From Bacilli bacterium (lineage in GTDB: Bacteria; Bacillota_I; Bacilli_A; RF39; UBA660): a stretch of DNA of 64,000 nt. Of this stretch, positions 13,810 through 53,414 are shown one piece after another (position 1 is the first letter of the stretch; the number at the start of each line of letters is the position of its first letter). Where the stretch lies: positions 100,119 through 164,118 of the forward strand of contig JAQVKM010000001.1 of assembly GCA_028694645.1 (NCBI GenBank). The letters run 5' to 3'. The translations under genes and the position numbers were made by a program. The notes under the pieces are model-generated. The model was not told where the DNA came from and did not search any database. It was given only the letters and a program-made list of their open reading frames with translations.

Positions 13810-16800
13810 GTGTCTTATACAATCAAAAAATTCAGCGATTATCGCGAAAGAAGAAATTACGCAAAAACAAAAAACGCTATAGAACTAGGTAATTTATTAG
13901 AAATTCAAAAAAGTTCATACAATTGGTTCATTGAAAAAGGAATAGAAGAAGTTTTTAGTGACATTTTTCCAGTTGAAAGTTTTTCAGGAAATTTATCTTT
14001 AGAATTTGGAAATTATTCATTTGATGAACCTAGATATTCAATAAAAGGATGCAAAGAAAGATATTCAACTTATGCTGCACCTTTAAAAGTAGAAGCAAGA
14101 TTATTTAATCATGAAACTGGTGAAGTTAAAGAACAAGATATTTATCTTGGAGATATGCCTGTTATGACCGATTCAGGAACATTTATTATAAATGGTGCTG
14201 AAAGAGTTATTGTATCTCAATTAGTTCGTTCACCTTCTGCTTATTATGGTAGAGAAATAGATAAAAATGGTCGTTTAGTTATAACAAGTCAATTAATACC
14301 TAATCATGGTACTTGGCTTGAATATGAATTAGATGCAAGAGATGTTATTTATGTTAGAATTGATAGAACAAGAAAAGTTCCAATTACAACTTTACTTAGA
14401 GCTATTGGTTTATCTAGTGATGAAGATATATATGATTTATTTGGAGAAAATGATTATATAGAAAGAACTATTGTTAAAGATGCAAATAAAAACACAGATG
14501 AAGCATTAATTGATATTCATTCTAAATTAAGACCAGGTGAACCATCTACATTAGATAGTGCTAAAAATCAATTAGTAACAAGATTTTTTGATTCATTTAG
14601 ATATGATTTAGCTAAAGTAGGTCGTTATACATTTAATAGAAAATTGAATGTATGTGATCGTTTACTAGGTTGTAAACTAGCTGAAACTATTAAAAATGGT
14701 AAAGAAATCATAGCAGAAAAAGATACTGTAATTACTAAGGAATTATTAGAAAAACTTAAACCAATTATGGAAACTGGATATGGAACTAAAGAAGTTTTAA
14801 TTAATCAAGATTTAGATTCATATAATAAAGTTCAAGTTATTAAAGTTTATTCTAAAAATAATCCTGATAAAGTTGTAAATATCATAGGTAATGATGCAAC
14901 AACAGAAATTAAAAGATTAACAATTTCAGATATATATGCAAGTGTATCATATTACTTAAATTTACTTGAAGGAATAGGTAATTTTGATGAAATAGATCAT
15001 TTATCAAATAGACGTGTTCGTCAAGTAGGAGAATTATTACAAAATCAATTTAGAATAGGTGTTTCTAGAATTGAAAGAGTTATTAGAGATAGAATGAGTA
15101 CTCAAGAAATAACTGAAGTAACTCCAAAATCTTTAATTAACATTAGACCACTTACTGCATCTATTAAGGAATTCTTTGGTAGCAGTCAGTTATCTCAATT
15201 CATGGATCAAACTAATCCAGTAGCAGAACTTACTAATAAAAGAAGATTATCTTCTTTAGGGCCTGGTGGATTATCTAGAGATAGAGCTGGAATGGAAGTT
15301 CGTGACGTTAATACATCACATTATGGAAGATTATGTCCAGTTGAATCGCCAGAAGGACCAAACATTGGACTTATAACTTCATTAGCAAGTTACGCTAAGA
15401 TAAATGAATATGGATTTATAATGACACCATATCGTAAAGTTGTTAATAAACATTTAACTGATGAAATAGTATATATGACAGCAGATGAAGAACTAGAATA
15501 TTATATTTCACAAGCAACTGTAGATCTTGATGACAATAATAATTTAAAGGCTGATAGAGTTCCAGTTAGATATCGTAGTGATAATATTATGATAGAATCT
15601 GATAAAGTAGATTATATAGATGTTTCACCACAACAAATTGTTTCTATAACAACACAAGGAATACCTTTCCTTGAGCATGATGATGGAAAACGTACATTGA
15701 TGGGTGCTAACATGCAACGTCAAGCAATTCCATTATTAACAGTTGAAGCTCCTCTTGTTGGAACAGGAGTAGAAGCTATAGCAGCTAGAGATTCTGGAGC
15801 TGTTATAATATCAAAAGCAGATGGTATTGTAGATTATGTTGATGCTAAAAAAATTATTATTAAAACATTAGGTGGTATGGATACATATTATTTAAATGGT
15901 TTTGAAAGAAGTAACGTTGGTACTTGTTATCATCAAATTCCTATTGTAAGATTAGGTGATGCTGTTCATAAAGATCAAGTTATAGCTGATGGGCCTTCAA
16001 CTGATAAAGGAGAAATGGCTTTAGGTAAAAATGTTACTGTAGCTTTCATGAACTATAATGGATACAACTATGAAGATGCCGTTATTTTAAATGAAAGATT
16101 AGTAAAAGATGATGTTTATACATCAATTCATATTGAAGATTACCAAATAGAATGCCGTGATACGAAATTAGGACCAGAAGAATTTACAAGAGATATTCCA
16201 AATATTAGTGAGGATGCTCGTAAAAATCTAGATGAAAATGGTATTGTTCGTATTGGAACAGAAGTTAATACAGACGATATTTTAGTAGGTAAAGTTACTC
16301 CTAAAGGAATGGCAGAACTTACTTCAGAAGAAAAATTATTACATGCTATTTTTGGAGAAAAAACTCGTGAAGTTAGAGATACATCACTAAGAGTACCAAA
16401 TGGTGGAGCAGGAATTGTTCATGATGTAAAAATATTTACAAAAGATGATTCAGATGAATTACCAGCTGGTGTTTCTAAATTAGTTCGTGTTTATATTATT
16501 CAAAAAAGAAAAATAACAGTTGGAGATAAAATGGCAGGACGTCATGGAAATAAAGGTGTTATTTCATTAGTGCTTCCAGAAGAAGATATGCCATATTTAC
16601 CAAATGGAGAAACAGTAGATATTTTACTAAATCCACTTGGAGTTCCATCTCGTATGAATATTGGACAAATATTAGAAATGCATTTAGGAATGGCAGCAAA
16701 AGAATTAGGAATTTTTGTAGCTACACCAGTATTTGATGGAGCAAGTCGTGAAGAAATAATTGATGCTTTAAAAGAAGCAGGATTAGATGAAGATGGAAAA

Positions 16801-17409
16801 GTTGTTTTACGTGATGGTAGAACAGGTGAAGCATTTGATAATAGAATTAGCGTTGGTGTTATGTATATGATTAAATTACACCACATGGTTGATGATAAAT
16901 TACATGCTCGTTCAACTGGACCATACTCACTTGTTACACAACAACCTCTTGGAGGTAAAGCACAATTTGGTGGACAAAGATTTGGAGAAATGGAAGTTTG
17001 GGCACTTGAAGCTTATGGTGCAGCTCATGTTTTACAAGAAATGATTACTATTAAATCAGATGATGTAGTAGGACGTGTTAGAGTTTATGAATCATTAGTT
17101 AAAGGAACACCAATTCCAACATCAGGAATACCTGAAAGTTTTAGAGTTTTAATTAAAGAATTCCAAGCATTAGGACTTGATATGACAGTTCTAAATAAAG
17201 AAGGCGAATTTGTTGATTTAAAAAATCTAGAAGAACAAGATGATGATACATATTTAAATAGTGACGAAATTGAATTAGAAGAATTAGCTGAGACTCCTGA
17301 AGTAGAGGAAGTTGAAGAAGAAACTGATTTCGATGATATGGAACCAGAATTTGATGCAGATTTCGATGAAGATATGGATGATTTGGATTTAGAAGGGGAT
17401 GATAACTAA
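13810..17409 (+). CDS. rpoB: DNA-directed RNA polymerase beta subunit
   Basis: full-length RpoB motifs; GTG start at 13810 more plausible than the 13729 ORF start. Confidence 0.97.
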
Positions 17410-20400
17410 TGGATGTAAACAATTTTGAAGGCTTAAGAATAGCTATTGCATCTCCTGAAAGAATTAGACAATGGTCTTATGGTGAAGTAAAAAAAGCAGA
17501 AACAATTAACTATCGTACTTTAAAACCTGAAAGAGATGGTTTATTCTGTGAAAAAATATTTGGACCAACTAAAGACTTTGAATGTTCTTGTGGAAAATAT
17601 AAAAGATTAAGATATAAAAATATTGTTTGTGATAGATGTGGAGTAGAAGTAACAAAAGCTAAAGTACGTAGAGAACGTATGGGACACATTGAGTTAGCTA
17701 CTCCTGTATCTCACATCTGGTTTTTTAAAGGAATTCCATCTCGTATGGGTCTTGTTCTAGATATGTCTCCAAGAGACCTAGAAGAAGTTTTATACTTTGT
17801 ATCTTATGTTGTTTTAGATAAAGGAGCAGCTCCTTTAGAAAAGAAACAAATTATAAGTGATAAAGAATATCGTGCTTATTATGAGAAATATGGAAATACT
17901 TTTAAAGTAGGTATGGGTGCTGAAGCTATTAAACAATTATTAACTGAAGTTGATTTAGCTACTGAAGTTGAGACAATAAAAAAAGAAATAGATGAAATAA
18001 AAGATTCTACAAGTCAAAAAAGAGTTCGTTTAATTAAACGTTTAGATGTATTAAATGCATTCTTAGAATCTGGAAATAGACCTGAATGGATGATTATGGA
18101 TGCAATTCCAGTTATTCCTCCAGAACTAAGACCAATGATTCAATTAGATGGTGGTAGATTTGCAACAAGTGATTTAAATGACTTATATAGAAGAGTTATA
18201 AATCGTAATAATCGTTTGAAAAAACTAATGGAATTAGGAGCTCCTAGTATCATTATTCAAAATGAAAAACGTATGTTACAAGAAGCTGTAGATGCATTAT
18301 TTGATAATGGTAGAAGAGGGCGTAATATAACTGGTGCTGGAAATAGACCACTTAAATCTTTATCTAGCATGTTAAAAGGTAAACAAGGACGTTTCCGTCA
18401 AAACTTACTTGGAAAACGTGTTGATTATTCAGGACGTTCAGTTATCGTAGTAGGTCCAAACTTAAAAATGTATGAATGTGGTATTCCAAAAGAAATGGCA
18501 CTTGAATTATTTAAACCACATGTTATCAATGGATTAGTTTCTAAAGATATAGCATCAAATATTAAAGCAGCTAAAAGAATGATTGAAAATCAAGATCCTA
18601 GAGTTTGGGATATTGTTGAAGAAAAAATAAAAGAACATCCAGTTATGTTAAATAGAGCACCAACATTACATAGATTGGGTATTCAAGCATTTGAACCAAA
18701 ATTAATTGATGGTAGAGCAATTAGATTACATCCGCTTGTTTGTGCAGCATTTAATGCCGATTTTGATGGAGATCAAATGGCTGTTCACGTACCAATAAGT
18801 GAAGAAGCTAAAGCTGAAGCTAGAATATTAATGTTAGGAGCTAATAACATTCTAAAACCATCTGATGGAGCACCAATTGTTACTCCAGGACAAGATATGA
18901 TTTTAGGAAATTATTATATAACAATTGAAAAAGCTGGATTACCTGGTGAAGGTAGAGTATTTAAAAATCCTAATGAAGCTTTAATGGCTTATGAAAGAAG
19001 AGAAATTACTTTAAGCACCAGAATAGCTATTCAAGTAAAAGGATTTAAGCATAAATTATTTACTGATGATCAAATGGATAAATATTTAGTTACAACAGTA
19101 GGTAAAATTAAATTCAATGAAATATTCCCAGATACTTTCCAATATATTAATGAAGGAACTAAAGAAAATATTGAAGGAATTACTCCAGGTAAATATTTCC
19201 TTAAAAAAGGTTCAAACATTAAAGAAGAAATTGCTAATATGGAATTAGTCTCACCATTCAATAAAGGAGTATTAACTAAGTTAATTGCTCAAATATATAA
19301 AAGATATCAAACTACTGAAACATCTATAATGCTAGATAAAATGAAAGATTTAGGATTCAAAGAATCAACTTTATCTGGAATTTCAATTGGTATTGGTGAT
19401 ATAGCTTTATCTAAAGATAAAGAACAAATCTTAAGCGAAGCTACTGAAAAAGTAACTCAAGTAAATAAACAATTTAAACGTGGTTTAATTACTGATAAAG
19501 AAAGATATGATAAAGTAGTTGAATCTTGGAATGGTGCTAAAGATAAAATAGCTGATGAATTATCTGCTTATATCAAATCAAATAAAGAAAATCCTATTTC
19601 AATTATGATTTCATCAGGAGCTCGTGGTAACATGAGTAACTACAACCAAATGGCTGGTATGCGTGGACTTATGATGAAACCAACAGGTGAAGCAGTAGAA
19701 ATACCAATTACAACTTCATTTACTGAAGGTGCAAGAGTGTTTGAATTCTTCTTAGCAACGCACGGAACTAGAAAAGGTACTGTTGATACAGCCTTAAAAA
19801 CTGCCGATGCTGGATACTTAACAAGACGTCTTGTTGATGTAGCACAAGATATTATTGTTAGAGAAGATGATTGTGGAACTGATGAGGGTGTAATAGTTGA
19901 AGCATTTGTAAATCCAGATGGAACTATTATAGAAAGTTTAAGAAACCGTATTGTTGGTAGATATACTAACAAAAAAGTTATTAATCCTGAAACAAAAGAA
20001 GTAATAGTTGAAAGAAACACTTATATTACAGAAACACTTGCTGATAAAATAATTGCTTCTGGGGTAACCAAAGTAGCTATTAGAACTGTTCTAACATGTA
20101 AAAATGAACATGGTGTTTGTAGACATTGTTATGGGCGTAATTTAGCAACAGGACAAGTTGTTGAAGTTGGAGAAGCAGTTGGTATTATGGCAGCTCAATC
20201 AATTGGAGAACCAGGTACTCAACTTACAATGCGTACTATCAACTCAGGTGGAGTAGCTGGAGATGATATTACTCAAGGTCTTCCACGTGTTCAAGAATTA
20301 TTTGAAGCTCGTAATCCTAAAGGAAAATCAACAATTTCTGAAATAAATGGTGTGGTAACAAAAATAGAAGAACAAAATGGAAAATTCTTGATATTTGTTA

Positions 20401-21041
20401 AAAATGATATTGAAACAAAAGAACATGTAAGTAATTATGGAGCTAAATTAGCTGTTTCAGTAAATGAAGAAGTTAAAGCAGGACAAAGATTAACTCATGG
20501 AGCAATTAGTCCAAAAGAGTTATTAGTTGTAACAAATCCAATTACTGTTCAACAATATATATTATCAGAAATTCAAAAAGTTTATGGATCACAAGGTGTT
20601 GATATTAATGATAAACACGTTGAAATAATGGCTAAACGTATGATTTCAAAAATCAAAATAATTAACTCTAATGATGCTTATTTCTTACCAGGTACAATGG
20701 TAAATATAAATAACTTTAGAGATGTTAATAAAGAATTAATTCTTCAAGGAAAAACTCCTGCTACAGGACGTCCAGTACTTTTAGGTATAACTAAAGCATC
20801 TTTAGAAACAGACTCATTCTTATCAGCAGCATCTTTCCAAGAAACGACAAGAATCTTAACTGATGCAGCAATTCATGGTAAAGTAGATCATTTAAATGGT
20901 CTTAAAGAAAATGTTATCATTGGTAAATTAATACCAGCTGGTACAGGAGCTAAAAAATACCGTGATGTTAATTATGAATTGGAAAAAGATGAATCAAGAT
21001 TAGAACCTCTTGATGCACTAGAAGAAGAATTAATGGATTAA
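17409..21041 (+). CDS. rpoC: DNA-directed RNA polymerase beta' subunit
   Basis: [14 protein letters not shown] active site. Confidence 0.98.
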
Positions 21042-21045
21042 TATT

Positions 21046-21077
21046 AAATCAAGATGAAAACATCTTGATTTTTTTTT
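21046..21077 (+). terminator. rpoC terminator
   Basis: aaatcaagatg-aaaa-catcttgattttttttt. Confidence 0.8.
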
Positions 21078-21120
21078 GAAATGGTTTGTAAAAGTAAAAT
21101 TAATATGATATAATTATTTT

Positions 21121-21283
21121 GCTAGAAAGTTTCGTATAAGAAAAACCTACAAGTTAACGATTGGGAATTTAATTCTTAGAATGTGTTGAATACTTAAATT
21201 TATTTAAGAATCCTAATTTCTATGATGTAATACCCACCTGGGAGATCAGGTTTTATCGTTAAAGGAACTTTCTAGCTTTTTTT
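21121..21283 (+). ncRNA. ssrS: probable 6S RNA
   Basis: closing stem gctagaaagtt...aactttctagc, internal aacctacaagttaacg paired with cgttaa/acccacct...aggttt, then T run; no ORF. Confidence 0.65.
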
Positions 21284-43743: not shown

Positions 43744-43828
43744 GCGGGTGTGGCGAAATTGGCAGACGCGCTAGACTTAGGATCTAGTGCCTTACGGCAT
43801 GGGGGTTCAAGTCCCTTCACCCGCACCA
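43744..43828 (+). tRNA. tRNA-Leu(TAG)
   Basis: gcgggtg...cacccgc-acca, anticodon loop cttagga, long variable arm. Confidence 0.95.
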
Positions 43829-43923
43829 TATTGATAGGAAACTCGAACTTTTCGAGTATGTATAGAAAATACTAACTAAATTATAGTTGGTATTTTTTTG
43901 TGTACTAGGAAAGAGGGATTAAA

Positions 43924-44196
43924 ATGTTACAAATAGAAACTAAAGAAATTAAAATAAGTGAAGAATTAAAAAGAAAAATAGAAATGATAGGAAGATTTAC
44001 TAATACTAAACCAATAATTAAAAACGGAAGTATTAGAAATATAAAAGGGACTAATATTGCATATGTAGAACCTCATCAAATATTTATAAAAAATAATATA
44101 TATTTGATATATGATGAATCTGATATTGTATTTATAAATAATCTATATAATTCTATTTATTTAAAAGATTTAGAAAATTATATAAAACAAAATTAA
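43924..44196 (+). CDS. hypothetical protein (90 aa)
   Basis: ORF with RBS. Confidence 0.55.
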   Translation: MLQIETKEIKISEELKRKIEMIGRFTNTKPIIKNGSIRNIKGTNIAYVEPHQIFIKNNIYLIYDESDIVFINNLYNSIYLKDLENYIKQN

Positions 44197-44200
44197 AATC

Positions 44201-44229
44201 TTGACTTTGATAAGATAAAACTATATTAT
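44201..44229 (+). promoter_or_regulatory. promoter TTGACT-N17-TATTAT for the recombinase leader
   Basis: -35 at 44201-44206, -10 at 44224-44229. Confidence 0.65.
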
Positions 44230-44274
44230 ATAAAACTAGTAAGTGGCAAGTACTGCATTTAGTGGAGGTACATT

Positions 44275-44343
44275 ATGAATAAACCATTAAACAAGTTAAA
44301 ACAATATAATAATCAAAGAGGAGTCAAGAGTATTAGTAAATAA
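44275..44343 (+). CDS. 22-aa leader peptide MNKPLNKLKQYNNQRGVKSISK
   Basis: RBS tggaggt upstream; overlaps the terminator stem 5' arm. Confidence 0.5.
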   Translation: MNKPLNKLKQYNNQRGVKSISK

Positions 44344-44365
44344 TGCTTTTGTCTCCTCTTTTTTT
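44315..44365 (+). terminator. attenuator-like terminator upstream of recombinase
   Basis: aaagaggag ... ctcctcttttttt with an inner aagagtatt/aatgctttt helix (G-U allowed). Confidence 0.7.
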
Positions 44366-44384
44366 GATAGAAAGAGGGAAATGA

Positions 44385-46151
<1,767 letters not shown>

Positions 46152-46318
46152 AAAAAGAAAGTCAAAAGACTGTCAAAAATAAATTTGTATATACAAATAA
46201 AAAAGCAATAAATCTTTGATTTATAAGAGTAAAACTTGCTACTAGCAAGTTGTTGTAATACAGAACTTATCCTGATAAAAAGATAACAAAAAATTCTGCT
46301 TTAAAAAGGAGGCTTATT

Positions 46319-46747
46319 TTGAAAGATAATAAAATAACTGTGAGATTTTCTAATGATGAATTAGAAAAAATAAATGAAGTAGCAAAACAAAAAAAGATTA
46401 AAACAGCAACACTAATTAGAAATATAACTTTATCATCACTTACCAATCAAGAATTGCTAAGTGAAAAAGATGAACTAAGAGATTTTATAATTAAAACAAT
46501 TGAAGAATCTAGTGATAAAAAATTAGGAAGAATAATATCATTAATATTTAGAGCAACATCTAAAATAGAAGAAGTATTTGAGCAAAATGATTTATTCTAT
46601 CAAAATACTAGAGATTTCTATAATTGGGAATATGATAAAAAGGAATATATAAATAGAAATTATTATCATCCAATATCAGAACTTGCAATGGAATTTATTA
46701 AAGAAAGAGATGAAGAAAGAATGAAGAATAGAATTAAATCGGATTAG
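46319..46747 (+). CDS. ribbon-helix-helix protein (mobilization/regulator type)
   Basis: KITVRFSNDELEKINEVAKQKKIKTATLIRN; TTG start. Confidence 0.65.
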   Translation: MKDNKITVRFSNDELEKINEVAKQKKIKTATLIRNITLSSLTNQELLSEKDELRDFIIKTIEESSDKKLGRIISLIFRATSKIEEVFEQNDLFYQNTRDFYNWEYDKKEYINRNYYHPISELAMEFIKERDEERMKNRIKSD

Positions 46748-46785
46748 TAAAATATCAAAATATTCTATAAAATAATTAAAAACCC

Positions 46786-46814
46786 TTGAAAATTCGGGGG
46801 GGGTATGTTATTAT
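46786..46814 (+). promoter_or_regulatory. promoter of DGR target gene with G8 tract in the spacer
   Basis: TTGAAA (46786-46791), 17-nt spacer attcGGGGGGGGtatgt, extended -10 TGt-TATTAT (46809-46814). Confidence 0.7.
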
Positions 46815-46852
46815 ATTGTTAATCAATAAATTAATAGTAGAGGAGTAAGAAT

Positions 46853-48502
46853 ATGAGTTATTTTAAATTATGTAGTAAAAAGATTGTTGATTTAAAAAAA
46901 ACAGGTTTTACATTAATCGAGTTATTAGCAGTAATAGTAATATTAGCAATAATAGCATTAATTGCAACACCAACGATTTTAGGAGTAATAGAAAAAGCTA
47001 AAAAAGGAGCAGCAGAAGCAAGTGCATTAGGTTATATAGATGCAGTAGAAAAGTTATCATTAACTTCATCTTTAAATGGAGATGATTCATTAAATGAGGG
47101 AACTTATGAAGTACCTACATTAAATTCAAAAGTAGATATAAAAGGAAAAAAACCAACATTAGGTAATGTTACCGTAAATTCTGACGGTGAGGTAACGAGT
47201 GCGACTCTTGCTATAAATGGTTATAAAGTTAGTTATACTGACTCAATAGCAAAAGTAGTGAGTAGTGAAATTACTGACATGACATATACTGAAAATGTAT
47301 TGAAAGGAACAGATCCAGTCCTAGGTACAGGAATGATACCAGTAACAATAGCAAATGATGGAACAGTAACATATGCTGATGTAAATAAAGAATGGTATAA
47401 CTATACAGATAAGAAATGGGCAAACGCAGTAAAATTATCTTCAGGAACATATGCAGTAGGACAAGTTATACCGGAGTCTGCAATACAATCATATTTTGTG
47501 TGGATACCAAGATATAAATATAAAATATTTAATATAGGAAATTATACAAGTGGAATAACAGGAACACCAACTAGTAGTACAAAACAAAGTATAGAAATAG
47601 TATTTGAATCAAAAGATAAAACTGTATCAACAGGAAATACAGTAGGATCATATTTAACTCATCCCGCCTTTACAGCTTTAGATACAAATGGAATCTGGGT
47701 TGGTAAATTTGAAACAGGATATTTAGGTGCAACAACGAAAGAAACAGCTCAAGTAACAAGTTCTGATCAAACTAAAATAATAGTTAAACCTAATGTATTT
47801 AGTTGGAGGAATAATACAATTTATAACATGTTTGTTTCAAGTTATAACTATGATAGAACAAATGATTCTCATATGATGAAAAATACAGAGTGGGGAGCAG
47901 TAGCATATCTTTCACATTCCGTATATGGAATAAATAAAGAAGTAAATATAAATAATAACTCATCATATAAAACAGGGTATAGTGCCTTAACTACAACTAA
48001 TCAAACAACATATCCAGGAACATATGGTGATGGATCAAACTATAATAATGCATATAATACAACAACAGGTTACCTAGCATCAACAACCGGAAATATAACA
48101 GGAATATATGATATGTCTGGTGGAGCTTGGGAATATATGGCTTCATATATGTTTGGACAACTTGGAAGTAGTGGATTTACTGCTGCTAATATTGCAACTT
48201 ATAATTCAAAATATTTTGATATTTATAGTGCTTCAAGTACAATAACAGGTTATAATTACAGAATATTAGGAGATGCGACTGGAGAAATAGGGCCATTTTA
48301 TAGTTATGCAGATGGAGATGGAAGTACAAGATACCATAACAGTTGGTACGCTGACTATTCGTACTTCGTTGAGTCTTCTTACCCTTGGTTCAATCGAGGC
48401 GGTGGTTACTACAGTGGAGTTCTTGCGGGTCAGTTCAATTTCAGTAGGAACACAGGGGCTGTGTACACTAGCGTTGGTTCCCGCCTCGTTCTTGCAGGCT
48501 AA
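46853..48502 (+). CDS. DGR target: prepilin-like N-terminus plus FGE/C-type-lectin-like C-terminal domain
   Basis: KKTGFTLIELLAVIVILAIIALIATP prepilin motif; GIYDMSGGAWEYM; C-terminus is the VR. Confidence 0.9.
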   Translation: MSYFKLCSKKIVDLKKTGFTLIELLAVIVILAIIALIATPTILGVIEKAKKGAAEASALGYIDAVEKLSLTSSLNGDDSLNEGTYEVPTLNSKVDIKGKKPTLGNVTVNSDGEVTSATLAINGYKVSYTDSIAKVVSSEITDMTYTENVLKGTDPVLGTGMIPVTIANDGTVTYADVNKEWYNYTDKKWANAVKLSSGTYAVGQVIPESAIQSYFVWIPRYKYKIFNIGNYTSGITGTPTSSTKQSIEIVFESKDKTVSTGNTVGSYLTHPAFTALDTNGIWVGKFETGYLGATTKETAQVTSSDQTKIIVKPNVFSWRNNTIYNMFVSSYNYDRTNDSHMMKNTEWGAVAYLSHSVYGINKEVNINNNSSYKTGYSALTTTNQTTYPGTYGDGSNYNNAYNTTTGYLASTTGNITGIYDMSGGAWEYMASYMFGQLGSSGFTAANIATYNSKYFDIYSASSTITGYNYRILGDATGEIGPFYSYADGDGSTRYHNSWYADYSYFVESSYPWFNRGGGYYSGVLAGQFNFSRNTGAVYTSVGSRLVLAG

Positions 48503-48506
48503 AATT
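48347..48506 (+). repeat. DGR variable repeat (VR)
   Basis: 160 bp aligned without gaps to TR; 14 of 15 mismatches at TR adenines. Confidence 0.95.
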
Positions 48507-48519
48507 TCGGAAATTTTAG
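48499..48519 (+). promoter_or_regulatory. hairpin at VR 3' end overlapping stop codon (IMH-associated candidate)
   Basis: ctaaaattt-cgg-aaattttag perfect 9-bp stem, absent after TR. Confidence 0.65.
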
Positions 48520-48542
48520 TCTAACCCTTTTTCTTTGAATGG

Positions 48543-48576
48543 AGTATGCCCTGCCCCTTTTTAGGCAGGGCATACT
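48543..48576 (+). terminator. 13-bp GC-rich hairpin between VR and TR
   Basis: agtatgccctgcc-N8-ggcagggcatact; function (terminator or DGR element) undetermined. Confidence 0.55.
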
Positions 48577-48645
48577 AAAAATTATGGCATTTATTTTAAA
48601 TAAATGTAGGCATTAAACTGTTAAAAAACTAACCCTTTAACTCTT

Positions 48646-48805
48646 TACGCTGACAATTCGAACTTCGTTGACTCTTCTAACCCTTGGTTCAATCGAGGCG
48701 GTAATTACAACAATGGAGTTCTTGCAGGTCAGTTCAATTTCAATAGGAACACAGGAGCTGTGAACACTAACATTGGTTCCCGCCTCGTTCTTGCAGACTA
48801 AAATT
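48646..48805 (+). repeat. DGR template repeat (TR)
   Basis: non-coding copy of VR rich in AAC/AAT codons, upstream of msl-avd-RT. Confidence 0.95.
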
Positions 48806-49010
48806 ATAAAGTTATATTCTTCATCAATATATAAGTTTAAGGACTTATAAAAGATGCTTATTTTAGAAGTTTAAGGCCTATCTATTTATTAGATAAAAAT
48901 ATAAATAAAATATTTTGATGAGTAGTAAAATGATGAAAACTAGAATATTTATGCAGTACAACTTTTTTGTTCTGCTTTTTTAGTGTTTTACAGATTTTGG
49001 AGGTATGTTT

Positions 49011-49376
49011 ATGAGTAAAATATACAATGAATATTTAAGATTAAAAGAAATTGATAGTAATAAATTATATTTATTTAAAAGTGGCAAATTTTATATATTT
49101 GTAGGTGATGATTGTGATTTGATAAATGAATGTGTAGTATTAAAGAAAACCCCTTTTTCAAAAGAAACTTTTAAATGTGGGTTCCCAGTTAATTCTTTAG
49201 AACAATATTTGAGAGTTTTTAGTAATCATAAATTAAATATTCAAGTTGTGGAAGAAATAAGTGATATCGATGAACCAAAAATAGTGCTTGATTTTATAAA
49301 GGAAATAGATATAGATAATATTACTCCAATGGAAGCAATAATAACTTTGAAAAAATTAAAGGACTTAGTAAGATGA
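49011..49376 (+). CDS. MutS-like DGR accessory mini-protein
   Basis: LYLFKSGKFYIFVGDDCDLINE...CGFPVNSLEQYLRVFSNHKLNIQVVEE resembles MutS domain I; ends ITPMEAIITLKKLKDLV like the MutS C-terminus. Confidence 0.75.
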   Translation: MSKIYNEYLRLKEIDSNKLYLFKSGKFYIFVGDDCDLINECVVLKKTPFSKETFKCGFPVNSLEQYLRVFSNHKLNIQVVEEISDIDEPKIVLDFIKEIDIDNITPMEAIITLKKLKDLVR

Positions 49377-49738
49377 ATGATAAAAAGAGTGCAGAAGATT
49401 TAATTATATATAAGCAATATTTAATTTTAATATATTATACGGAGATGATAACTGAAAAATTTCCTAAAAGTCAAAAATTGTCATTAGTAACAAATATTAA
49501 AAATAATACATATGATGGTATGAAAAAAATAATACTTGCTTATAAATATTATGAAAAAACTGATAAATTAAAATCACTAAATGAGCTTGATATTAACTTA
49601 AAAATGCTAAAAGTATTAATTAGAATTTCTTATAAACGAAAATATATAAATAGTAAAAATTATGAAGCTTGGAGTAAAAAAATAAATAATATTGGTAATT
49701 TATTAGGTGGCTGGATTGTATCATGTCTAAAACAATAA
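49373..49738 (+). CDS. avd: Avd-like four-helix-bundle DGR accessory protein
   Basis: YYTEMITEKFPKSQKLSLVTNIKNNTYDGMKKIILAYKY; directly upstream of RT. Confidence 0.85.
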   Translation: MNDKKSAEDLIIYKQYLILIYYTEMITEKFPKSQKLSLVTNIKNNTYDGMKKIILAYKYYEKTDKLKSLNELDINLKMLKVLIRISYKRKYINSKNYEAWSKKINNIGNLLGGWIVSCLKQ

Positions 49739-50760
49739 AAAATATGTTCAATAGTAAACTAACTTTTGAAAAACTTTTACAAGCTCATGAAAGAGCTAGC
49801 ATAGGTAAAAAATGTAGAAAAGAAATTATTTTATTTGAAATGGATTTAGAAACTAATATTATAAAAATTCTTAATGATTTAAAAAATAGTAAATATAAAT
49901 TTGGTAATTATAGGGAATTTATAATATATGAACCAAAAGAACGAATAATTAAATCATTACCTTATAAAGATAGAATTGTCCATCAATGGTATATAAGTGA
50001 ATTTGTTAAACCTTTTTTCTATCGGAGATTTATTATTGATTCATATGCATGCATAGATAATAGGGGTACTCATAATGCAGTATGTAAAATTCAAAAATAT
50101 ATGCAAAAAATGAAGAAAAAGTATGATGATTATTATGTTTTAAAATGCGATATTAAGAAATTTTTTTATAGTATTAATAAAGAGATTTTATTTAATATAA
50201 TAAAGGAAAATATCTCAGATAAGAAGTTATTAGAATTAACTAAAAATATATTAAGTACAGAAGATAATAAGGGAATACCAATAGGCAATTATACTAGTCA
50301 ATTTTTTGCTAATATATATTTAAATGAACTTGATCATTATATAAAAGAAGAATTATATGTTAAATATTATATTAGATATATGGATGATTTTATTTTACTA
50401 GTGCCTAATAAGGAAATTGCAAATGAATTAAATACCAAAATAAAGGAATTTGTAGAGATAAAATTAGATTTAGAATTAAATAGAAAAACTAAGTATTTTC
50501 CATCAAAATTTGGTATAGATTTTTGTGGATATAAAATATTTGAAACACATATTTTATTAAGAAAAAGATTTAAGAAGAAGTTTAAAAAAAATATTATTTT
50601 ATGGAATAAACTTTATTATAATAACAAACTAAATTATAATAAAATGAGTATGAGTTTAAATTCATATATAGCTCATTCAAATCACTGTAATAGTTATAAT
50701 TTCAAAAACGAAATATTAAAAAAAATAGAATTTGTAATTGATGATAATTTCAAAATATGA
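49723..50760 (+). CDS. DGR-type reverse transcriptase
   Basis: GIPIGNYTSQFFANIYLNELD (DGR-style GxxxSQ), IRYMDDFILL catalytic box, no maturase domain. Confidence 0.95.
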   Translation: MSKTIKNMFNSKLTFEKLLQAHERASIGKKCRKEIILFEMDLETNIIKILNDLKNSKYKFGNYREFIIYEPKERIIKSLPYKDRIVHQWYISEFVKPFFYRRFIIDSYACIDNRGTHNAVCKIQKYMQKMKKKYDDYYVLKCDIKKFFYSINKEILFNIIKENISDKKLLELTKNILSTEDNKGIPIGNYTSQFFANIYLNELDHYIKEELYVKYYIRYMDDFILLVPNKEIANELNTKIKEFVEIKLDLELNRKTKYFPSKFGIDFCGYKIFETHILLRKRFKKKFKKNIILWNKLYYNNKLNYNKMSMSLNSYIAHSNHCNSYNFKNEILKKIEFVIDDNFKI

Positions 50761-50861
50761 TAACATTATCGTAGTTAGTATTTACTTACTACCTATTTAA
50801 TATTGCCGAAAGTTGTCGTACTGGTAACTCTAACGCACCATATGTAATTAAAAACAGATTT

Positions 50862-50890
50862 TTATAATCTGTTTTTTTAGTAAATAAAAT
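50862..50890 (+). terminator. terminator in duplicated intergenic unit, copy 1
   Basis: aacagatt-tttat-aatctgttttttt. Confidence 0.75.
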
Positions 50891-50970
50891 GTCAAACAAA
50901 ATAAAAAAAGATTTGACTTATAGAATATATCATTCTATAATAAAAACAGAATAGAAGATAGGAGAATTAT

Positions 50971-52098
50971 ATGAAAAAAGGTTTTACATTAATTGAGTTG
51001 TTAGCAGTAATAATAATACTAGCTGTTATAGCTTTAATAGCAACACCAATGATACTTGGAATAATTAAGACAGCAAAAGAAGGTTCAGCAGAGGCTAGTG
51101 CACTAGGATATATAGATTCTCTTGAAAAAAGCATAGTTTTATCAACAATGAGTGGAACAACGATTACAGGTGAATATAATGTATCTGATTTGAGTGATAT
51201 TGTTAAAATGAAGGGTGAGGCCCCAACTAAAGGAAATGTTATCATTGCTTCTAATGGAGAAATAAATAGTGGAACATTTTGTATTAATAATTATAAAGTC
51301 AGCTATGATGGAAGTAAAGCAAATGTTGTAGCAAATAATTGTGATGATATGACTGAAGTAACAACTCCAGAAACACCAGAAATACCAGAAACTCCATCAT
51401 ATGAGATAGGTTCAGCAATATATTTTAACCCAGAAACGGGTCTTACATGTACAGCAGGCGAAGCAGTTAGTATAAATGATACAAAAACAGGATGTATGAA
51501 ATGGCATATACTTAATAATAATGAATCAAATGATACATTTGATTTGATTTTAGATCATAACACAACTGCAAAATTTGCTTGGTATCCAACTGCAGTTAAT
51601 ACAACAGGACCATCAACAACTTTTTTAGAAAGACTTAAAAGTGATACCAGTTCGTGGGCAGGAGTACCTACTAGAACAGATAGTTATAGTTTAAGTAATG
51701 GTAGTTCTACTTATACAATCAATTATAGTACATATAAAGCAAGATTAATAACAGCACAAGAAGTAGCTAAATTAACAGGTAATAGTAGTTTTAATGAAGT
51801 AACTTCTGGAAAGACATCATACTTTTTTCTAAATAATAATACTGCCACACAAACAGCATTTACACCAGGAGCAAGTACTTATGCATGGTTATTTGATTAT
51901 ACCAGTGATTGTACAAGCGCAGGATGTAATACCGCTTATGCTTATACTACCGGATATTGGACAGCAACAGCAACTTTTGGAACTACTGATTATGGCTGGG
52001 GTGTTACTTCTTTAGGTGGTTTAGGAAGTATAAGTGTTAGTTATACTAGTATGTTTGGAATACGTCCAGTTATAACAATACCTAAATCTAGTATCTAA
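50971..52098 (+). CDS. prepilin-like surface protein with C-terminal GIRPVITI domain (paralog 1)
   Basis: MKKGFTLIELLAVIIILAVIALIATP; TTGACT-N17-TATAAT promoter upstream. Confidence 0.85.
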   Translation: MKKGFTLIELLAVIIILAVIALIATPMILGIIKTAKEGSAEASALGYIDSLEKSIVLSTMSGTTITGEYNVSDLSDIVKMKGEAPTKGNVIIASNGEINSGTFCINNYKVSYDGSKANVVANNCDDMTEVTTPETPEIPETPSYEIGSAIYFNPETGLTCTAGEAVSINDTKTGCMKWHILNNNESNDTFDLILDHNTTAKFAWYPTAVNTTGPSTTFLERLKSDTSSWAGVPTRTDSYSLSNGSSTYTINYSTYKARLITAQEVAKLTGNSSFNEVTSGKTSYFFLNNNTATQTAFTPGASTYAWLFDYTSDCTSAGCNTAYAYTTGYWTATATFGTTDYGWGVTSLGGLGSISVSYTSMFGIRPVITIPKSSI

Positions 52099-52304
52099 AT
52101 AAAAACTGAAGATTAATTGAATAAATGATAATTTAATATTATTAAGAGTGTTGTACTGGTAACTCTAACGCTCCATATGTAATTAAAAACAGATTTTTAT
52201 AATCTGTTTTTTTAGTAAATAAAATGTCAAATAAAATAAAAAAAATTTGACTTGCATAATATATCATTCTATAATAAAAATAGAATAGAAAATAGGAGAA
52301 TTAT

Positions 52305-53414
52305 ATGAAAAAAGGATTTACATTAATTGAGTTGTTAGCTGTAATAGTAATACTAGCTATAATAGCTTTAATAGCAACACCAATGATTCTAGGAATTATA
52401 ACGAAAGCTAAAAAAGGAGCAGCAGAAGCTAGTGCATATAATTATATTGAAACTGTAGGAACAAAAACAGTATTTAATGAAATACAAAAAAATCCATCTA
52501 TATTAAAAGGAACATATAATGTAGATGAATTAAAAGATACATATAAAGTAACAATAAAAGGAACATATCCAACATTAGGAACAGTAACAATATCAGAAAA
52601 AGGAAATGTAACAAATGCAACACTATGTATTAATAATTATGAAATAAGTTATGATGGTAAAAAAGCAAATATAGAAGCTGATAATTGTAATAATGTATCT
52701 AATGAAACAATAGTAGTATATGCTAATGGAACAGCCATATATTTTAATCCAGTAACAGGTCTTACATGTACAGCAGGAGAAGCGATAAGTACAACAGGAA
52801 CCAAAACAGGATGTATGAAATGGTATACATTTAATGATAATGAATCTAGTAATACAGTTAATTTGATATTAGATCATAATACAACAGCTACTGTAGCATG
52901 GAATTCTAGTAATAGTAATGTCAGTGGACCGACAAATATATTAACGCAACTTGCATCTGATACTAGTTCATGGGCAGGAGTGCCAACAAGAACAGATAGT
53001 TATAGTGTAAGTAATGGAAAAGCTACTTATACAATAAATTATAATACATATAAGGCTAGATTAATAACAGCATCTGAAATAGCTACAATTACAGGAAATA
53101 GTAGTTTTGTAGAAGCAACAGCATATTATGACGCGTGGTTTTATTTAGACAGTAATAATCAAACACAAACGGCTACAACAACTGGAGCAAGTAATTATGC
53201 CTGGTTATTTGATTATACAGATGACTGTACTAGTTACGGATGTAATATTGCTGATGCCAGTAACGGTGGGTACTGGACATCTACAGCCTTCTCTGGCGAT
53301 ACTTACTATGCTTGGGACGTGAATTGTGGCGGCAACTTGAACTACTGGGGCGTAGACAGTCCATTCAACTACGGCGTGCGCCCAGTTATAACTATCTTAA
53401 AATCTAATCTCTAA
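52305..53414 (+). CDS. prepilin-like surface protein with C-terminal GVRPVITI domain (paralog 2)
   Basis: MKKGFTLIELLAVIVILAIIALIATP; tandem paralog of the preceding gene. Confidence 0.87.
   Translation: MKKGFTLIELLAVIVILAIIALIATPMILGIITKAKKGAAEASAYNYIETVGTKTVFNEIQKNPSILKGTYNVDELKDTYKVTIKGTYPTLGTVTISEKGNVTNATLCINNYEISYDGKKANIEADNCNNVSNETIVVYANGTAIYFNPVTGLTCTAGEAISTTGTKTGCMKWYTFNDNESSNTVNLILDHNTTATVAWNSSNSNVSGPTNILTQLASDTSSWAGVPTRTDSYSVSNGKATYTINYNTYKARLITASEIATITGNSSFVEATAYYDAWFYLDSNNQTQTATTTGASNYAWLFDYTDDCTSYGCNIADASNGGYWTSTAFSGDTYYAWDVNCGGNLNYWGVDSPFNYGVRPVITILKSNL

Follow-up and report, generated by a model that had tools for sequence, protein, structure and literature searches.

Background

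Slippage in the spacer between the -35 and -10 boxes is known for the porA and opc promoters, and both slippage and expression have been measured there. The optimal distance between the two boxes is 17 nt, and an extended -10 element can lessen the dependence on this spacing. Frame-shifting switches, on the other hand, carry their tracts in coding or leader sequence. For the porA and opc promoters of Neisseria meningitidis, van der Ende 1995 and Sarkari 1994 are referenced in PMC5084427. Furthermore, DGRs with pilin-like targets have been reported (PMC6642488). Gut Bacteroidales possess invertible promoters on capsule loci as well as tip pilins that are diversified by DGRs (PMC12632263), and the sortase pili of Bifidobacterium breve are controlled by a replication-slippage switch (PMC9187656).

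The DGR described here lies in a stretch of DNA of 64,000 nucleotides, which was analysed as a whole and is called the window (positions count from its first letter). The promoter of the DGR target contains eight consecutive guanines between its boxes. The preferred reading, to which a probability of roughly 80% is assigned, is that this G8 tract is a slipped-strand contingency element of the porA/opc kind in the core promoter of the target, stacked on the DGR.

A mobile DGR with a pilin-like target

The DGR is real, with a TR/VR pair, bAvd and a reverse transcriptase (RT) with the YMDD motif all present. The RT adjoins the TR, the VR forms the 3' end of the target, and 14 of the 15 differences between TR and VR are located at TR adenines. 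The cassette and the element that carries it consist of the following features:

43829-50840, + strand: 7.0-kb integrative element with the DGR inside, located behind the 3' end of tRNA-Leu (43744-43828)
44385-46151, + strand: large serine recombinase of the element (Resolvase and Recombinase Pfam matches)
46319-46747, + strand: small NikA-like or DUF6290-like protein, 5' neighbour of the promoter (weak Pfam matches below cut-off)
46853-48502, + strand: DGR target, 549 aa, type IV pilin-like N terminus (N_methyl Pfam, pilin matches), C-terminal variable region
48347-48502, + strand: variable repeat (VR), 160-nt direct repeat, ends at the target stop codon
48646-48801, + strand: template repeat (TR), direct repeat with the VR
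49005-49376, + strand: accessory ORF, small protein with MutS domain I only (Pfam MutS_I, E 3.6e-9)
49373-49738, + strand: Avd accessory protein (Pfam bAvd, E 5.9e-22)
49723-50760, + strand: DGR reverse transcriptase (Pfam RVT_1; YMDD)

Surface exposure of the target rests solely on the sequence match of its pilin-like N terminus. The FGE-sulfatase match, which concerns a possible C-type lectin fold of the variable domain, is weak and below the curated cut-off, and the AlphaFold model of the target (mean pLDDT 38.8) was too poor for a structure search.

A second copy of the element was detected on another contig (C14, about 14229-21245). It is internally identical, has a tmRNA at its left end, and contains the same VR and also a G8 tract. 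CACCA occurs at the element ends. The whole DGR is mobile and was copied recently in the source genome. Beside the element, a 308-bp repeat with 90% identity was observed (50795-51102 and 52131-52436). The first copy spans the right end of the element; the second precedes the next pilin gene and carries a AACTCTAACGCTCCA variant of the end sequence. Perhaps this repeat was left behind by an older insertion, or it arose by tandem duplication.

An ORF with MutS domain I only is also part of the second DGR (contig C8, see below) of this genome, which has full-length MutS and a MutL. Its function is inferred; the protein might shield DGR products from mismatch repair. It is conceivable, yet quite improbable, that the cassette is a mobile two-layer module in which the MutS_I protein locally hinders mismatch repair and jointly raises two rates, that of adenine mutagenesis in the VR and that of slippage at the promoter G tract. 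If this were true, its effect would couple the identity of a variant to its expression. Loss of mismatch repair was considered as a cause of the tract and rejected: since the source genome has a full-length MutS and a MutL, absent mismatch repair does not explain the G tract. MutL was found in 364 of 390 genomes of the family UBA660.

The target promoter and its G8 tract

The promoter (46786-46814, TTGAAA-attcG8tatgt-TATTAT) lies a short way 5' of the start codon of the target. The original prediction had claimed boxes 17 nt apart and an extended -10 TG, and both were confirmed on reading the sequence, with exact coordinates:

46786-46791, + strand: -35 box TTGAAA of the DGR target promoter (read directly; same box at the C8 DGR)
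46792-46808, + strand: spacer, 17 nt (read directly)
46796-46803, + strand: G8 tract within the 17-nt spacer, proposed slippage site (read directly)
46806-46814, + strand: extended -10 TGT-TATTAT (read directly and by promoter scan; conserved at C8), with TG at 46806-46807 and the -10 box TATTAT at 46809-46814 (read directly)
46840-46845, + strand: GAGGAG, likely ribosome binding site (read directly)
46853, + strand: target ATG (read directly)

The arrangement fulfils one criterion of a porA/opc-type slippage promoter, a homopolymer between the -35 and -10 boxes. Including the TG, it scored 10 of 12 in the promoter scan. However, the scan found 78 promoter-like sites in the window, and shuffled sequence would be expected to yield 77.9; by themselves, the boxes therefore carry no meaning.

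Two pilin-like genes of the window (50971-52098 and 52305-53414) possess TTGACT-17-TATAAT promoters without a G tract and provide a natural contrast to the DGR target. A tract is thus not generally needed by pilin promoters in the window.

The tract had been put forward as very rare in such DNA, and within the 64 kb it is indeed the only G or C run of at least 6 (153 runs of length 3, 27 of 4, 2 of 5 and 1 of 8). Markov models of orders 1, 3 and 4 predict about 0.04 G8/C8 runs per window but about 0.7 per genome; the order-2 model predicts fewer. Because of the latter expectation, rarity is only suggestive and was dropped as stand-alone evidence. Together with the abundance of promoter-like pairs in shuffles, the same expectation would allow for a coincidence, i.e. 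a chance G8 in a chance pair of boxes, with the true promoter located elsewhere.

In the source genome (1.216 Mb in 20 contigs), three G8 tracts and one G7 tract were found. The G7 tract lies directly 5' of the start of a YhgE-like ORF, in the position of a ribosome binding site. Two of the three G8 tracts belong to the duplicated 7-kb element, and the third belongs to a second, diverged DGR locus.

A second DGR locus with nearly the same promoter

This second locus (C8) is a DGR with an RT of 56% identity, a MutS_I ORF, a 133-nt repeat pair and an Avd-like ORF, which was assigned by position and sequence. Its promoter, TTGAAAAATCG8TATGTTATTAT, is located 5' of a 563-aa pilin-like protein. A comparison of the two independent promoters from the -35 box to just past the -10 box gives 30 identical positions out of 31; their flanks differ. 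Both independent G8 tracts of the genome hence lie in near-identical promoters, each driving a DGR target. The same motif at a second, diverged DGR speaks against a chance origin.

That both DGRs share G8 and nearly the same sequence from box to box would also be compatible with a promoter feature that is fixed and does not act as a switch. Such a feature could be a site to which a regulator binds, or a structural spacer of constant length, common to co-regulated surface genes of this lineage. The same can be said of some related genomes, in which many promoters have the motif in common.

Poly-G promoters in the family UBA660

The genomes were surveyed with the pattern TTGA-N(2-14)-G7-N(2-14)-TANNAT (G7 or longer) and a reversed control. 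Matches occurred in 143 of the 390 family genomes and in 75 of 152 genera, with a maximum of 110 in one genome, versus 20 matches in total for the reversed control. These counts refer to matches and not to sites, because one tract can match several boxes. In the sample of the order RF39, 74 of 194 genomes matched, all from the same family. Strict specificity of the poly-G promoter for the family was nevertheless rejected: in the class sample, 27 of 217 genomes outside the family matched the G8 version of the pattern, mostly at few sites.

Each of four genomes (G362, G073, G082 and G393) gave about 45 to 110 matches to the poly-G promoter pattern; their apparent repertoire of contingency loci is unusually large. 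Relatives of the RT were found in 144 of the 390 family genomes. The relatives that could be named in this way are metagenome assemblies, mostly labelled uncultured Bacilli and many from 'Lapin' isolates; Candidatus Onthousia faecavium was among them.

Tract length and downstream ORF were examined in 62 records from 13 genomes. The tracts range from G7 to G13 with a mode of G9-G10, which places the G8 of the window at the short end. The apparent spacers between the boxes measure 11 to 25 nt, and the assignment of boxes is uncertain in AT-rich DNA. Most downstream ORFs begin with an N-terminal membrane anchor or a pilin motif; the predominant gene products are surface proteins with an anchor, pilins and glycan enzymes. 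Pfam domains in 53 of these ORFs include camelysin, BspA LRR, DUF285, FGE-sulfatase, Big domains, GLF and IspD, among others. A separate case is one genome (G027) with TTGACA, a 20-nt spacer and G10 located 5' of a BspA-like protein. In uncultured gut bacteria of this family, there appear to be many poly-G promoters before surface proteins, a large set that has apparently not been described.

Paralogous sites within one genome were paired if their downstream sequences were at least 80% identical over 150 bp or more, and the G count differed in 13 of the 20 pairs. Examples are G9/G10 with 95% identity over 547 bp (L306/L308 in G163), G10/G13 with 95% identity over 336 bp (L316/L317 in G238) and G9/G10 with 92% identity over 600 bp (L330/L331 in G242). 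The comparison is one of paralogues and not of strains, and a single miscounted base in an assembly could explain individual cases. Lengths that vary between close paralogues with the same flanks, as well as the span from G7 to G13, are difficult to reconcile with a fixed promoter feature.

An artefact of sequencing or assembly, such as two-colour poly-G calls or miscounted homopolymers, was considered: all genomes are drafts, many of the family matches are close to the end of a contig, and exact counts may be wrong by one. It is very unlikely, because the tract of the window lies well inside a contig of 215 kb and occurs in both element copies, and because the flanks are conserved among independently assembled genomes.

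Viral contigs were considered as a source of near-identical loci with other tract lengths. This was not successful, as matches to the promoter motif were unrelated or recurrent non-promoter sequences. Viral relatives of the DGR were at most about 42% identical and had few tracts.

G tracts at other DGR targets

The comparison drew on about 40 additional DGR loci and on loci from genome contigs; the start of the target or operon was resolved in 19. These 19 loci (216 kb) contain 12 tracts of at least 8, and 10 of the 12 fall between -230 and +100 relative to that start. This zone makes up 2.8% of the sequence, in which 0.34 tracts were expected (binomial p ~2e-14; the zone was chosen post hoc). 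Thus, 10 of the 19 loci have a G8-G10 tract at the start, of which six are clear spacers, one is degenerate and three lie in leader or coding sequence:

Window: G8, 17-nt spacer, clear promoter spacer
L126: G8, 17-nt spacer, clear promoter spacer
L201: G10, 17-nt spacer, clear; in front of a small gene that lies upstream in the operon
L159: G9, 18-nt spacer, clear promoter spacer
L188: G10, 19-nt spacer, clear promoter spacer
L181: G10, spacer of 18 or 21 nt depending on the -10 chosen, clear promoter spacer
L167: resembles the other poly-G promoters of its genome, except for a degenerate -35
L170 (G258:C3): G8 within the ORF, directly before KGFTLIELL, in frame
L166 (G137:C3): G10, preceded by an upstream ATG in a different frame from the target
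L217: short leader with G10, relation to the target not established

No tract was found at the other nine of the 19 loci (L161, L162, L163, L168, L169, L174, L176, L187, L194). A tract is therefore not required for a DGR, and the pairing is frequent but not universal.

With the recurrence throughout the family, the few matches in the control and the concentration at the 5' ends of targets, a coincidental G8 can hardly be maintained. L166 and L170 likely represent translational phase variation of DGR targets. The tract of the Bifidobacterium breve pilus study is reportedly located in the coding sequence and not in a promoter spacer, which would resemble L170. A role in the promoter is impossible for the tracts in the coding sequence of L170 and in the leader of L166, which is a further point against a fixed promoter feature. 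This explanation is considered unlikely, though less so than coincidence or artefact. The pairing of G tract and DGR recurs in several genera, including the leader and coding forms.

Proposed switch of the DGR target

Under the preferred reading of a slipped-strand element, gain or loss of guanines would shift the distance between the boxes from 17 nt (G8) to 16, 18 or 19 nt etc., and transcription of the gene for the pilin-like surface protein would fall or rise with the changed spacing. Independently of this, the DGR would rewrite the variable face of the protein. Two stacked layers would result, one determining whether and how much protein is made and the other which variant. The many promoters of this kind in related genomes, whose G counts vary, make it very probable that slippage also switches this target up and down; length variation at the locus, the transcription start and the effect on expression are inferred. 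No length variation was seen at the tract of the window: the count is G8 in either copy of the element, and likewise in the C8 promoter. Since G8 gives the optimal 17 nt, the gene is probably ON in the assembled state.

The view that a spacer homopolymer marks a phase-variable design is supported by the recurrence in the family, the length differences between paralogues and the concentration at DGR targets, with length variation here being deduced from relatives. The original prediction of ON/OFF phase variation on top of hypermutation is supported with regard to a second layer, but the response may be graded: G8 together with the extended -10 may lead to modulation instead of a strict ON/OFF switch. 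Tract lengths are countable in existing metagenome reads, so that switching at the population level can be tested without cultures.

Comparison with known systems

In a search of an open library, which does not hold subscription papers and preprints, no paper was found that describes the combination, as had been supposed, nor one on phase variation in RF39. As in porA and opc, the length of a G or C homopolymer in the promoter, 5' of the gene for a putative surface protein, would set the spacing of the boxes or the output. Those are single genes of a Gram-negative pathogen, however, without a DGR on the same gene. DGRs of the BPP-1 type resemble the cassette in RT, Avd, adenine-directed differences between TR and VR and a surface-type target; the available portions of PMC6642488 and PMC12875486 make no mention of a target promoter with a slippage tract. 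In comparison to these, the cassette of the window has an additional ORF for MutS domain I and is carried along with a serine recombinase.

Gut Bacteroidales likewise combine ON/OFF promoter switching with DGRs on surface structures, but the switching is achieved by DNA inversion and not by slippage, as far as the accessible text of PMC12632263 goes. In Bifidobacterium breve, homopolymer slippage switches pili in a gut Gram-positive bacterium (PMC9187656, in the extract available), but without a DGR. The locus thus apparently unites a known switch and a known mutator in a new combination and in a large new setting.
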